Below, one piece after another: positions 2,797-10,467 of a stretch of DNA of 32,725 nucleotides. Position numbers and translations under genes: made by a program. The stretch's first letter is position 1, and each line of letters starts with the position of its first letter. The notes under the pieces are model-generated. The model saw only the letters and a list, made by a program, of their open reading frames with translations, ran no database searches and was not told the DNA's origin. The stretch comes from Acidothermaceae bacterium. Lineage in GTDB: Bacteria; Actinomycetota; Actinomycetes; Acidothermales; Acidothermaceae. The stretch covers positions 1-32,725 of the forward strand of contig JAICYF010000009.1 of assembly GCA_025934355.1 (NCBI GenBank). Direction: 5' to 3'.

Positions 2797-3552
2797 TCAC
2801 GCCAAACCGGCGTCGCGTGCGGTGATCCTGACGCAGCACTCCCCCGGCGTCGGTTTGAATTCCGCCGCAAGGTCGTGCAGCGACATTCCTTCGAGCAAAC
2901 CGTGGAGCAGGTGCACGTTCAGCTGGCAGACCAGCTCCGGCTCGACCTCGACCACCGCGTGGAACGGGCAGTTGCGCAATCGCAGCGACCCGGCATCGCC
3001 GGTCTCGTCGTCCGAGACGGGCTCGTACCCGAGCTCGGCGAGCACCGCGCAGACGTGCCCGAGAGGCCCGGACGACGCGCCGCCGGTGCCCGCCACCGTG
3101 TTGACTCGTTCCTGGCCAAGCTCGCGGCCGGTCATTTCGGCCGCGTTGAACGTTGCCGAGCGCGCGTCGGTGGCCCCACCTGAGCGCGAGGCGTCGCGCA
3201 CGCCGGCGGCCAGGATGCGGCCGGCTAGGTCGTAGCGACGAGCGGGAACACTGGCCGCGACCTCCCCGGCGGTGGCCCGGTACCGCTTGGCCGGTCGGCC
3301 TGCCCCAGGACCTCGACGGCCGGGCGGCCGGGCGTAGTCGACGTCGACCAACCCGGCCTTGGCGAGCGCGTCGAGGTGGAACGCGGCGAGCGGCCGCCCA
3401 AGCTCAAGTGCGCCGGCGACCTCGTCGCGGGTCGCGGGCGCGCCGGTTGCGCGCAGGTGCTCGTACACCCGCCGCCGCGTCGGCTCAATGAGCGCGGCAA
3501 GGGCGTCAATTGCCAGATCGGCTCGGTCGCGGCGCGGGTTCTCGGAAGTCAT
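2797..3552 (-). CDS. SufR/ArsR-like winged-helix regulator with C-terminal cysteine cluster
   Basis: This is a predicted transcription factor of 251 aa. Residues about 10-75 form a winged helix-turn-helix (IEPTRRRVYEHL, then DEVAGALELGRPLAAFHLDAL as a recognition helix). The C-terminal half has the pattern NCPFH...LVC...LLHGLL...GECCVR, with Cys195, Cys209, Cys239 and Cys240. This resembles SufR-type repressors (COG2345), which bind an Fe-S cluster there. An extra Cys168 is present. The ATG at 3552 is preferred over a possible upstream start near 3627, because the longer form would run through the AT-rich palindrome at 3575-3600 and add a non-conserved tail. It is divergent from the DUF2231-folE pair and probably controls itself and that pair. 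Cluster binding is inferred from the cysteines. The sensed signal (O2, NO, peroxide or iron status) is unknown. Confidence 0.82.
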   Translation of the reverse strand: MTSENPRRDRADLAIDALAALIEPTRRRVYEHLRATGAPATRDEVAGALELGRPLAAFHLDALAKAGLVDVDYARPPGRRGPGAGRPAKRYRATAGEVAASVPARRYDLAGRILAAGVRDASRSGGATDARSATFNAAEMTGRELGQERVNTVAGTGGASSGPLGHVCAVLAELGYEPVSDDETGDAGSLRLRNCPFHAVVEVEPELVCQLNVHLLHGLLEGMSLHDLAAEFKPTPGECCVRITARDAGLA

Positions 3553-3574
3553 TGACAGCTCACGGTCTTCACGT

Positions 3575-3600
3575 CTAAAAATAGTAACTGTTATTCTTAG
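3575..3600. promoter_or_regulatory. Near-palindromic operator candidate in divergent promoter region
   Basis: The arms CTAAAAATA (3575-3583) and TATTCTTAG (3592-3600) are inverted copies with one mismatch, separated by 8 nt. An inner dyad TAAC-T-GTTA sits at 3585-3593. This is the only markedly AT-rich patch nearby. It is 22 nt upstream of the regulator's ATG and 74 nt upstream of the DUF2231 ATG. TATTCT (forward) and TATTTT (reverse) inside the arms could be -10 boxes, so a bound dimer would block both promoters. The repeat is seen; its role as operator is inferred. Confidence 0.6.
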
Positions 3601-3674
3601 ATTCGTCCCCCCGGAGCGAGACGTCAAGGCCAGCCTCTCATCGAGGCAGCAGGTGGAGCCGAAGGAGCACAGAC

Positions 3675-4286
3675 ATGAGGCACTTCACATTCCGTCCGTC
3701 CCTGACCTTGACCGGCAGACGCAACCGCGGGCTGCGCGGGCTCGCCGGCAAGCCGTTCCACCCGCCGCTCACCGACATTCCGATCACCGCGTACATGTTT
3801 CTCGCGGTGTTCGACATCTTGTCGATCGCCTTGCACTCCACCTATCCGACGGCCGCCCGTCAGCTGTATGTCGTCGGATTGTGGCTGTTGCTCGGGGCTG
3901 CGGGGGCGTCGATATTGGCCGCGCTGACTGGGTGGGCCGACTGGCGCCGCTCGAGCGAGCCGGGCACGCAGGCCCGCCGCACCGTCAACGCCCACGCGAT
4001 CACCATGATCACGGTGACGACGATCGCGCTCGTTGACCTCGCCGTGCGCGGCCTCGCCTATCCGGACGACGCGTACGCGCCGGTGGTGACCGTCGTCTTG
4101 TCGGTGATCCTCGCGCTGCTCGTGTCTTTTGGCGCCACGATCGGTGGCTCGCTGGTCTATGACTACGGCTTCAACGTGGAGACCGCGGGTGACCATCCGG
4201 TCTGGCACCACAGCGAGGTCGATGTGCTGCCCGGCAAGAAGACCGCGCCAGACGCGCCGTCCGAGCCCGTGAGCGAGAAGGCCTGA
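3675..4286 (+). CDS. DUF2231-domain four-helix membrane protein
   Basis: This inner-membrane protein of 203 aa belongs to the uncharacterised DUF2231 family. The hallmark HPPLTDIPI is at residues 29-37. Predicted membrane spans are at about 36-54, 65-87, 108-126 and 136-160, followed by a polar C-terminal tail ending near the conserved-looking HPVWHHSEVDVLPGKK. Several histidines (29, 107, 174, 178, 179) could bind metal or heme, but nothing in the sequence proves this. The ATG is preceded by AAGGAG with suitable spacing. It lies beside the palindrome at 3575-3600 and 5 nt upstream of folE, so the two genes are probably one transcript under the divergent Fe-S-type regulator. Function is unknown. 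Confidence 0.85.
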   Translation: MRHFTFRPSLTLTGRRNRGLRGLAGKPFHPPLTDIPITAYMFLAVFDILSIALHSTYPTAARQLYVVGLWLLLGAAGASILAALTGWADWRRSSEPGTQARRTVNAHAITMITVTTIALVDLAVRGLAYPDDAYAPVVTVVLSVILALLVSFGATIGGSLVYDYGFNVETAGDHPVWHHSEVDVLPGKKTAPDAPSEPVSEKA

Positions 4287-4291
4287 TTGCA

Positions 4292-4933
4292 GTGACCGTG
4301 GAGAACTCCGACAACGTGACGACGCTTTCCCACGTCGAGCAATCCCGTCGTCCTGATCTGCGCGTTGTCTCGCGGCCACGCGTCGACATCGCGCGAGCGG
4401 AACTGGCCGCGCGCGAGTTTCTCGACGCGCTTGGGCTCGACCTCGACGACGCGACCATCGCCGCCACGCCAGGGCGGATGGCGCGCGCGTTCGAGGAGCT
4501 GATGACGCCGCGCGACTTCGTCCTCACGACGTTCCCGAACGACGAGAACTACGACGAGCTGGTCATCGCGCGGCAGATCCCGTTCACCTCGGTGTGTGAG
4601 CACCACATGTTGCCGTTCACCGGTGTCGCGGCCGTTGGATACCTGCCTGGCGGCCGCATTCTCGGTTTGTCGAAGCTGGCCCGCGTCGTGGAGTTGTTCG
4701 CCCGTCGGCCACAGGTGCAGGAGCGGCTGACGACGCAGGTCGCGCGCTGGCTTGACACGCACTTGTCGCCGAAGGGCGTTGGCGTCGTCATCGAGGCCGA
4801 GCACAGTTGCATGACGTTACGTGGCGTCGAGGCGCACGGCTCGAAGACAGTGACGTCGGCGCTTCTCGGCGTCCTGCGTTCAGACCCCTTGAGCCGCAGT
4901 GAGTTCCTGAACCTGGCCGGCTACCGCAACTGA
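4292..4933 (+). CDS. folE: GTP cyclohydrolase I
   Basis: FolE converts GTP to 7,8-dihydroneopterin triphosphate, the first step of tetrahydrofolate (and sometimes tetrahydrobiopterin) synthesis, in the cytoplasm. The 213-aa product carries the zinc site in FTSVCEHHMLPF (Cys102, His104, His105) and EAEHSCMTLRGV (Cys173), the GLSKLARVVELFARRPQVQE substrate helix and the terminal TVTSALLG motif. It has a poorly conserved N-terminal extension of about 35 residues, as many FolE proteins do. The GTG start comes 5 nt after the DUF2231 stop, suggesting translational coupling. Actinobacterial folE usually sits with other folate genes or ftsH; none are here, so this may be a second or specially regulated copy. 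That can only be decided from the whole genome. Confidence 0.95.
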   Translation: MTVENSDNVTTLSHVEQSRRPDLRVVSRPRVDIARAELAAREFLDALGLDLDDATIAATPGRMARAFEELMTPRDFVLTTFPNDENYDELVIARQIPFTSVCEHHMLPFTGVAAVGYLPGGRILGLSKLARVVELFARRPQVQERLTTQVARWLDTHLSPKGVGVVIEAEHSCMTLRGVEAHGSKTVTSALLGVLRSDPLSRSEFLNLAGYRN

Positions 4934-8017: not shown

Positions 8018-9034
8018 ATGAAGGTGGCGATGCTCGGGCCGATTGCGTGGCGCACGCCGCCTCGGCACTACGGTCCATGGGAGCTCGTCACCAGTTTGCT
8101 TACCGAGGGTCTGGTCGTACGCGGCATCGACGTCACCCTGTTCGCGACCTTGGATTCACAGACCAGCGCGCAGTTGCAAGGCGTGAGCCCGCACGGGTAT
8201 GCCGAGGATCCTTCGATGGACGGCCGGGTGTGGGAGGCCATGCATGTGGCACATGCGTTCGCGCAGTCAGCAGAATTCGAGATTGTTCATAACCAGATGG
8301 ACTGGCTTCCACTGGCGTTCGTCGAGCACTGCGACGCGCCGATGCTAACGACGATCCACGGCTTTTCGGGCGCCGGCATCCTGCCCGCCTACGCCAATGC
8401 GCGTTCGAGGTACGTGGCGATATCGGACGCCGACCGCTGCCCTGACCTCGACTATGTCGCGACCGTTCATCATGGAATCGACCTCGACGCCCTGCCGTTG
8501 CGGGAGACCGCTGGCGACGACCTCGTTGTGTTCGGGCGCATCCATCCTGACAAGGGCACCGCCGACGCGATCGACATCGCCCGCAGATGCGGTCGACGTC
8601 TCGTGATCTGCGGCATCATCCAAGACGCCGTCTACTTTGCCGATCGGGTCGAGCCGCGTGTCGACGGCGACCGAGTCGTCTACCGTGGTTCGGTAGGTGC
8701 CCAGGAGCGCGCAGAGGTGTTGGGTGCGGCGGCCGTGCTGCTGCATCCGATCTCGTTCGACGAGCCATTCGGCCTTTCCGTCATCGAGGCGATGGCCTGC
8801 GGGACGCCGGTCGTTGCCTACCGGCGTGGCTCAATGCCGGAAGTGGTCGACGAGGGCGTGACGGGGTTTCTCGTCGATGACGTCGCGCAGGCGGTGCGCG
8901 CGGTCGAGCGAGCGGCGGGTCTTAGCCGGCGAACGGTGCGGGAAAAGGTGGCGGCGCGCTTCGGCGTCGATCGCATGGTCGACGACTACGTTCGCGTCTA
9001 CGAGCGCATTGCGGCGAGCAGTTCATCGACGTGA
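8018..9034 (+). CDS. GT4-family glycosyltransferase
   Basis: This is a retaining, GT-B-fold glycosyltransferase of 338 aa that transfers a sugar from a nucleotide donor. The N-terminal acceptor domain begins MKVAMLGPIAWRTPP with a glycine-rich loop followed by HYGPWE. The C-terminal donor domain has VVFGRIHPDKG and the EPFGLSVIEAMACGTPVVAY region holding the GT4 E-x7-E motif. The ATG at 8018 is chosen because AGGGG lies 7 nt upstream and the protein then begins at the first beta-strand; an in-frame ATG 45 nt earlier would add a non-conserved arginine-rich tail. Its 3' end overlaps the convergent GH130-like gene by 37 bp. It probably acts with the reverse-strand GT4/GH130 set in building or turning over one glycan. 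Confidence 0.88.
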   Translation: MKVAMLGPIAWRTPPRHYGPWELVTSLLTEGLVVRGIDVTLFATLDSQTSAQLQGVSPHGYAEDPSMDGRVWEAMHVAHAFAQSAEFEIVHNQMDWLPLAFVEHCDAPMLTTIHGFSGAGILPAYANARSRYVAISDADRCPDLDYVATVHHGIDLDALPLRETAGDDLVVFGRIHPDKGTADAIDIARRCGRRLVICGIIQDAVYFADRVEPRVDGDRVVYRGSVGAQERAEVLGAAAVLLHPISFDEPFGLSVIEAMACGTPVVAYRRGSMPEVVDEGVTGFLVDDVAQAVRAVERAAGLSRRTVREKVAARFGVDRMVDDYVRVYERIAASSSST

Positions 9035-10467
9035 GCCCAGGCGACGCCGATGCGCGAGTCGCCGATGCCGTACGGCAGCCAAAGTCGCCCGTCATGAATG
9101 ACGCTGCCGCAGGAGTAAACGACGTTCGGCACGTAGCCATAACGTTCGCGGTCGGTGCCTTGCAGCAGCGGCTCCTCCAACTGCGCGATGACACGGGTCG
9201 GATCGTCGAGGTCGAGGAGCATCGCGCCGATGGTGTACCTGCGCATCGGCCCGACCCCGTGCGTGAGGACCAGCCAGCCTCGGTCGGTCTCGATCGGCGA
9301 GCCGCTATTGCCGACCTGAACCACCTCCCACGACGCTTTGGGCGCCTGGATCACGCTTGGCTTTCCCCAGACCAGCCCGTCGTCGGAACGTGCCACGCAG
9401 TTGCTCTCGCCGTCCGACCTGCATAGCGACCAGTGGCGACCGTCGACCAGTCGCGGAAACAGCGCCATGCCTTTGTTGCGTGCCGCCGAGCCGGCGAGGC
9501 GGTGTGCGCGGAACGTTCGCAAGTCAGGACTGGTCAGGAGCCTTGGGGCTATCACACGCCCGTCGTATGCCGTGTAGGTTGCCCGATACTCAACCGTTCC
9601 GTCGTCGCCCATGAACCGTACGAGTCGCGCGTCTTCCAGCCCGTTGCTCTCGTCCGGCACCGATGGCAACAACACCTGCTGGCTGATCGCGACGTCGTCC
9701 GCGAAGGAGACCTCGTAGGCCGAGGCGACTAACCGACGTAGGTTATCGAGCGTTGCGGCGCTGCCCGGTTGGCCGAGGAGATCTTGATGTGCCTCGGCAA
9801 GCGCATGCTCAAGTTCGGCGCCCGTGAAGTTATCGGGCAGCGCGGCCAGCACGCTGTGCGAGAGCCCGTTGATGCGTCCCTGATCCGCCAGAACGGCTCG
9901 CAGATGGTCCCTGGTCCACGTCGCGGCATGACTGGTTCCAGTCACCACGGGCAGCACCCGCGGTTCGAACTGCCACGAACCCGCACCGATTACCGCGGTG
10001 CAAAAGCCCAGCGAAGAGAGGTGCCCTTCCCCAATGGCCCGCAAGGTGAGGGCGACCCGAGTCTGTCCGGCCTGCAACCCGCTCTGATCGGGGTCCAACA
10101 CGACGCTGGGATTGCAGAGCGCAGCGCCCTCGATCGCGTACTCGGCCGTGAAGCTCGCACCCATCAGGAGGGTGCGGGCCTGGCTCATCGGGATGGCGGC
10201 TTGCAGGTGCGAGCTGATCGTCGACGCGTGCTCGTTGAGCAAGCGGATGAAGTCGTGGTGCCGGCACGAGAACTCGTCGATCAGATCGGCTGTGGCCCGT
10301 TCGACGTCCGCTTCGGGTAGCGCAAGAACGCGAGCGACCACGGCGCTGGCGCGTGAACGTCCGCTCGGCAACTCCTCGCCAGGCAGGAAAAGTCGGGCGA
10401 TTACCCGAGCAGGGTCAGGCAGCAGTGCCTCGTCGGTGTGGTGTATGACGGGCGCTTGCGTGTTCAC
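8998..10467 (-). CDS. GH130-like glycoside phosphorylase/hydrolase
   Basis: This five-bladed beta-propeller protein resembles glycoside hydrolase family 130, whose known members cleave beta-mannosides, usually by phosphorolysis. The 489-aa product has an alpha-helical N-terminal region of about 110 residues. The propeller motifs follow: NPSVVLDPDQSG (119-130), ALTLRAIGEGHLSS (139-152), ESNGLEDARLVRF (273-285), ATYTAYDGR (296-304), NKGMALFPR (331-339), GNSGSPIET (386-394), LTHGVGPMR (401-409) and GYVPNVVYSCG (444-454). The GTG at 10467 is chosen because it overlaps the upstream stop as GTGA; the frame stays open for 27 more codons with no conserved sequence. Substrate and choice between phosphorolysis and hydrolysis are unknown. 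It is the last gene of the coupled set. Confidence 0.85.
   Translation of the reverse strand: MNTQAPVIHHTDEALLPDPARVIARLFLPGEELPSGRSRASAVVARVLALPEADVERATADLIDEFSCRHHDFIRLLNEHASTISSHLQAAIPMSQARTLLMGASFTAEYAIEGAALCNPSVVLDPDQSGLQAGQTRVALTLRAIGEGHLSSLGFCTAVIGAGSWQFEPRVLPVVTGTSHAATWTRDHLRAVLADQGRINGLSHSVLAALPDNFTGAELEHALAEAHQDLLGQPGSAATLDNLRRLVASAYEVSFADDVAISQQVLLPSVPDESNGLEDARLVRFMGDDGTVEYRATYTAYDGRVIAPRLLTSPDLRTFRAHRLAGSAARNKGMALFPRLVDGRHWSLCRSDGESNCVARSDDGLVWGKPSVIQAPKASWEVVQVGNSGSPIETDRGWLVLTHGVGPMRRYTIGAMLLDLDDPTRVIAQLEEPLLQGTDRERYGYVPNVVYSCGSVIHDGRLWLPYGIGDSRIGVAWAHVDELLAAMRS

Follow-up and report, generated by a model that had tools for sequence, protein, structure and literature searches.

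A conserved 28-bp inverted repeat as candidate operator of an ArnR-like, cysteine-bearing regulator encoded divergently from DUF2231 and folE in an Acidothermaceae genome

Operators of SufR regulators have the form CAAC-N6-GTTG in cyanobacteria and ACACT-N5-TGTGA in mycobacteria. SufR of M. tuberculosis has an NO-responsive 4Fe-4S cluster, to judge by the title of a work cited in PMC12343034. ArnR of C. glutamicum is a dimeric [4Fe-4S] protein that senses NO and represses narKGHJI and hmp; in it, Cys179, Cys193 and Cys223 bind the cluster and nitrosylation by NO releases the protein from DNA (PMC12343034). Its sensor domain has a TRAPPC3-like fold, Zn has been found with the protein, and Rv2621c of M. 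tuberculosis, with a winged helix-turn-helix (wHTH) and a putative TRAPPC3-like sensor, has been called ArnR-like (PMC12343034).

The regulator studied here is encoded at 2797..3552 on the minus strand of the window, meaning the whole 32,725-nucleotide stretch of Acidothermaceae contig JAICYF010000009.1 that was analyzed. The protein (251 aa) joins a winged HTH (Pfam HTH_20) to a C-terminal sensor-like domain bearing Cys195, Cys209, Cys239 and Cys240, all four of which are invariant across 47 homologues. Foldseek searches with its AlphaFold2 model (pLDDT 89.7) returned ArsR-type HTH structures and, for the C-terminal part, TRAPPC3 structures (E 0.002-0.03); the TRAPPC3-like matches 6aq3, 7yh3 and 1wc9 had E values of 0.006-0.03 at probabilities of 0.95-1.00, and all best structure matches had E above 0.001. 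The TRAPPC3-like sensor fold is a predicted one. Membership in the ArsR/SmtB metalloregulators was rejected, as NCBIfam model NF033788 scored 29.8 bits against a cut-off of 55 and matched the HTH region only; neither Pfam nor NCBIfam has a family model dedicated to these regulators. Homologues were gathered from relatives, from 395 genomes of the class, from a paralogue in the same genome and from named genomes, the latter by an alignment scan of contigs, a single-protein scan having given none; at E<=1e-30 the family occurs in about a quarter of the 395 sampled genomes. MSMEG_5136, guessed to be a relative from gene order, turned out to be a different, flavin-binding-type protein. Distant superfamily members were seen at three further loci (L018, L019 and L020), divergent from genes that by eye are hemerythrin- or DUF2249-like and with other AT-rich patches in the gaps.

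The Cys spacing of the window regulator (195/209/239) is 14/30, the same as that of ArnR (179/193/223). The two proteins also have in common a CPF motif at the first Cys, a full-length HMM alignment and, as predicted for the window regulator, the combination of a wHTH with a TRAPPC3-like C-terminal domain; moreover, an ArnR-type gene lying directly downstream of narI in a Corynebacterium-like genus, which we infer to be Corynebacterium, encodes Cys at 179, 193 and 223 and aligns over its full length with the window family. In the phylogenetic tree, however, the window family forms a clade of its own (97/90), separate from the SufR (100/99) and ArnR-type (100/98) clades, and it has an invariant extra Cys adjoining the third one. 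Furthermore, while the arnR gene comes directly downstream of narKGHJI and ArnR controls nar and hmp, the window locus is without nar genes and the family has other predicted targets, namely DUF2231, folE, DoxX-like and FAD/NAD oxidoreductase genes. Corynebacterium sequences which we took to be of the Rv2621c type have a spacing of 14/28 and group with ArnR rather than with the window family.

An earlier sequence-only reading had described the protein as a SufR-like, cysteine-bearing regulator. Placement in the SufR/ArnR superfamily stands, as the wHTH with C-terminal Cys is common to both and the window-family HMM scores SufR at 45-54 bits; SufR identity itself was rejected. Corynebacterium sequences of SufR type have a Cys spacing of 4-13-28 (C-x3-C-x12-C-x27-C) against 14-30-1 in the window regulator, the tree clade differs, and where SufR is encoded with suf genes the window regulator adjoins DUF2231-folE and a permease gene. 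On another contig (G000:C36) a bona fide SufR is encoded together with sufB/sufD/sufC, and the genome has in addition an ArnR-type regulator, its Cys spaced 14 and 32, between narG and a gene for an 899-aa nirK-like copper protein (L260, G000:C51:16500-25000), the latter scoring 168.8 bits with TIGR02376, under the cut-off of 296. As both positions are thus taken, the window regulator is neither the SufR of this genome nor its ArnR counterpart. That it might be a divergent SufR with an altered operator, sensing Fe-S cluster status and iron, is suggested by the shared superfamily and the HMM scores. The evidence just given and the lack of any published SufR operator from the gap beside the gene (see below) largely refute this explanation, however, and we regard it as very improbable. 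On sequence and modeled structure, the architecture of the regulator is most like that of ArnR, which rather than SufR is its closest model.

The start of the regulator gene (3552, minus strand) and that of the DUF2231 gene (3675) are separated by a gap of 122 bp. Inside it, at 3575-3600, lies a 26-base near-palindrome, CTAAAAATAGTAACTGTTATTCTTAG. Its outer 9-bp arms, CTAAAAATA and TATTCTTAG, are complementary at 8 of 9 positions, and among all 28-mers in the window the one that it overlaps is the richest in AT (82%, the mean being 33%); the nine-base arms with one mismatch and the AT-rich setting had both been pointed out by the sequence-only reading, correctly in each case. Because the pairing extends by one base per side (TCTA...TAGA), the operator unit is better taken as the 28-bp inverted repeat TCTAAAAATAGTAACTGTTATTCTTAGA at 3574..3601. 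Significance from symmetry alone was rejected, given that 17 of the ~32,700 26-mers in the window pair equally well (8/9) with the same spacer. Arm pairing being not above chance, the operator claim had to rest on conservation, and it is from conservation that the significance of the palindrome comes. Neither CAAC-N6-GTTG nor ACACT-N5-TGTGA was found in the gap (3553-3674).

Over 37 training sites the consensus of the symmetric 28-bp site is TCTAWMRNYAR-N6-YTRNYKWTAGA, and the window site tops all 37 of these motif-building sites at 37.3 bits. The symmetric site is present in all 15 divergent regulator-DUF2231 gaps, weakly in one of them (L022), with CTA kept in 14 of the left arms and TAG in 13 of the right arms; the earlier reading had proposed that its operator would fall if the arms were not conserved along with the gene pair, and they are conserved. 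Training loci in which folE, DoxX-like or other genes lie opposite the regulator carry the symmetric site as well. In the DUF2231 loci, information content amounts to 1.58 bits per column in the arms, 0.67 in the center and 0.30 in the flanks. Compared as reverse complements, the half-sites correlate at 0.81, as opposed to -0.37 to 0.49 for shifted centers, a figure somewhat helped by the symmetric matrix with which sites were chosen. When the matrix was applied to 76 named hold-out loci kept outside its building, 63 had a site scoring 15 bits or more in the 350-bp gap; two of the hold-out loci (L116 and L140) repeat training genomes, and others are close relatives. The remainder of the same loci, as background, gave 10 such matches in 713,186 positions. 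The motif so defined is unlike the SufR operators, in line with the new recognition site that had been surmised from the single locus. The inner TAAC-T-GTTA to which the same reading drew attention does exist in the window, but none of the remaining 14 DUF2231 sites has it and conservation is poor at the motif center; it was therefore rejected as a recognized core and is incidental.

The regulator also stands together with DUF2231 in metagenome-assembled genomes (MAGs) of Chloroflexi and Dormiibacterota (L164 and L189), where the site is strong (35.4 and 24.9 bits, respectively); this suggests either transfer beyond Actinomycetota or misbinned contigs.

With respect to promoters, a putative -35 box of DUF2231-folE, TTGACA, is located at 3552..3557 on the plus strand, where it shares one base with the start codon of the regulator gene, an overlap also seen in locus L031. 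In 11 of the 15 DUF2231 loci, the window included, the operator is preceded at a distance of 21-25 bp by a perfect TTGACA, and TTGACA or TTGACG lies upstream of it in 14 of the 15. By this spacing the left arm falls at the expected -10 position, the candidate -10 region being TAAAAA at 3576..3581 on the plus strand, 18 bp past TTGACA. The earlier proposal of possible -10 boxes in both directions is upheld to that extent, although a consensus sigma-70 scan called no promoter, that with the -10 region at 3576..3581 included; we thus infer the placement of the operator over the -10 region.

One could argue from this geometry that the conserved block is a bidirectional promoter made of two facing -10 boxes, with no protein dimer involved: it is AT-rich, lies over the presumed -10 region and has TTGACA at a fixed distance. 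Nevertheless, a symmetry of 28 bp with a conserved inner YAR/YTR and poorly conserved flanks speaks against such a promoter, and at the DoxX-like loci the site shifts relative to the promoters and is present in two copies 38-41 bp apart, one of them over the -35. Its occurrences in the window genome, moreover, are only beside this regulator family. We find the promoter explanation hard to credit for these reasons.

The genome-wide occurrences come from a motif scan of the 3.19-Mb assembly of the window genome (84% complete). Only three sites had 0-2 mismatches, and the sole perfect match was the window site itself. The two others, each with two mismatches, stand in tandem in the gap that separates the gene of a paralogous regulator from a DoxX-like gene on contig 9 (L261, G000:C9), at 8944-8971 and 8982-9009, 38 bp apart. 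At three mismatches the count was at chance level (28 sites, versus 54 with a reversed-pattern control). Consequently, two loci, each beside a regulator of the family, are predicted to make up the regulon of this genome. Tandem sites at 38, 39 or 41 bp recur at DoxX-like promoters of Streptomyces, Rhodococcus and others, with one copy enclosing TTGAC; each DUF2231 promoter has a single site. The motif was absent from the Corynebacterium narK promoters examined. Upstream of a Corynebacterium-like narK (L258, ~10090-10150) we observed AAATAG and CTGTTATCTTA, which resemble half-sites set wider apart than those of the window operator and may be due to chance.

Downstream of the operator, the plus strand encodes a predicted DUF2231 membrane protein of 203 aa (3675..4286; Pfam PF09990, E=4.9e-19) followed by folE, a GTP cyclohydrolase I of 213 aa (4292..4933; over the cut-off of TIGR00063). 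This folE is the second copy in the genome; the other, 53% identical, lies between ftsH-like and folP/folB-like genes (L270, G000:C48:1-4500). A second copy could plausibly be an auxiliary enzyme controlled by stress. The neighbors that recurred in ~120 loci with a family regulator were DoxX-like genes (51), folE (40), FAD/NAD ferredoxin-reductase-like genes (29) and DUF2231 (20), besides a gene (9) that was assigned, by reading its sequence, to a probable nitronate monooxygenase. Genes narGHJI adjoin family regulators in mycobacterium-like genomes and in two MAGs. Co-occurrence of the regulator with narG was modest, with an odds ratio of 2.8 over 395 genomes uncorrected for phylogeny, and 45 of 101 carrier genomes were without narG, many of these having the DUF2231 arrangement; NO from nitrate respiration is for that reason not the general signal.

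We consider it fairly probable that the palindrome serves the neighboring regulator as its operator, and that this regulator is an autoregulated Fe-S repressor that would be released by NO or a related redox signal. The protein would act as a winged-helix dimer, and Cys195, Cys209 and Cys239 of its predicted TRAPPC3-like domain probably bind an Fe-S cluster, with Cys240 or His198 as a possible fourth ligand. Bound to TCTAWMRNYAR-N6-YTRNYKWTAGA, the holo form would mask the -10 region from which DUF2231-folE is presumably transcribed and would also block its own promoter on the other strand, thereby repressing its own gene along with the divergent pair. Were the cluster nitrosylated by NO, or lost under a related redox stress, the repressor would leave the DNA, and more DUF2231 and more of the second FolE would be made. 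Counting against this model are the place of the regulator outside the ArnR clade, the lack of the motif in the Corynebacterium narK promoters examined, the E values of the structure matches, the carriers without narG and the modest co-occurrence with narG. Owing to the likeness to ArnR, NO is the likeliest single signal, though not an established one, and for the DUF2231 branch the link to nitrate is weak; the signal possibly differs from that of SufR.

The same site could also be the operator of a regulator whose four invariant Cys bind Zn or switch by thiol redox or electrophile chemistry, and which senses peroxide, electrophiles or a metal. The CC pair with the two further Cys could bind Zn(II), the TRAPPC3 fold that was matched has Zn-bound structures, Zn was found with ArnR itself (PMC12343034), the FAD/NAD oxidoreductase and DoxX-like neighbors would suit general redox stress, and narG is missing in 45% of the carriers. 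On the other hand, the 14/30 spacing is that of ArnR, for which both cluster and NO response are experimental, and a nar-adjacent subset of the family exists; a Zn or thiol switch is, in our judgment, a serious but rather unlikely explanation.

Turning back to an Fe-S repressor, we tentatively suggest, as something plausible rather than probable, that the window family represents a third, undescribed clade of Fe-S NO- or redox-sensing repressors with an operator code of its own, widespread in actinobacteria and reaching some Chloroflexota/Dormibacterota MAGs. Such a clade would control an NO-defense module composed of DoxX-like and DUF2231 membrane proteins, an auxiliary GTP cyclohydrolase I and a NorW/ferredoxin-reductase-like flavoprotein, with narGHJI adjoining some members. 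A search of the open-access literature brought up the work on ArnR and nothing on the present regulators, on the operator or on DoxX/folE/DUF2231 as targets, so that operator and clade appear undescribed in the literature searched. The analysis yields a testable operator and regulon for a regulator family that lacks a dedicated model, and one switch would tie together folE, DUF2231 and DoxX-like genes. It also suggests a role for ArnR-type sensing far wider than nitrate respiration, and the invariant extra Cys is of interest for the identity of the fourth ligand in the ArnR cluster.

Finally, near the beginning of the window, positions 41-1036 encode selD (selenide, water dikinase), which scored over its family cut-off and lies in an amino-acid permease neighborhood.
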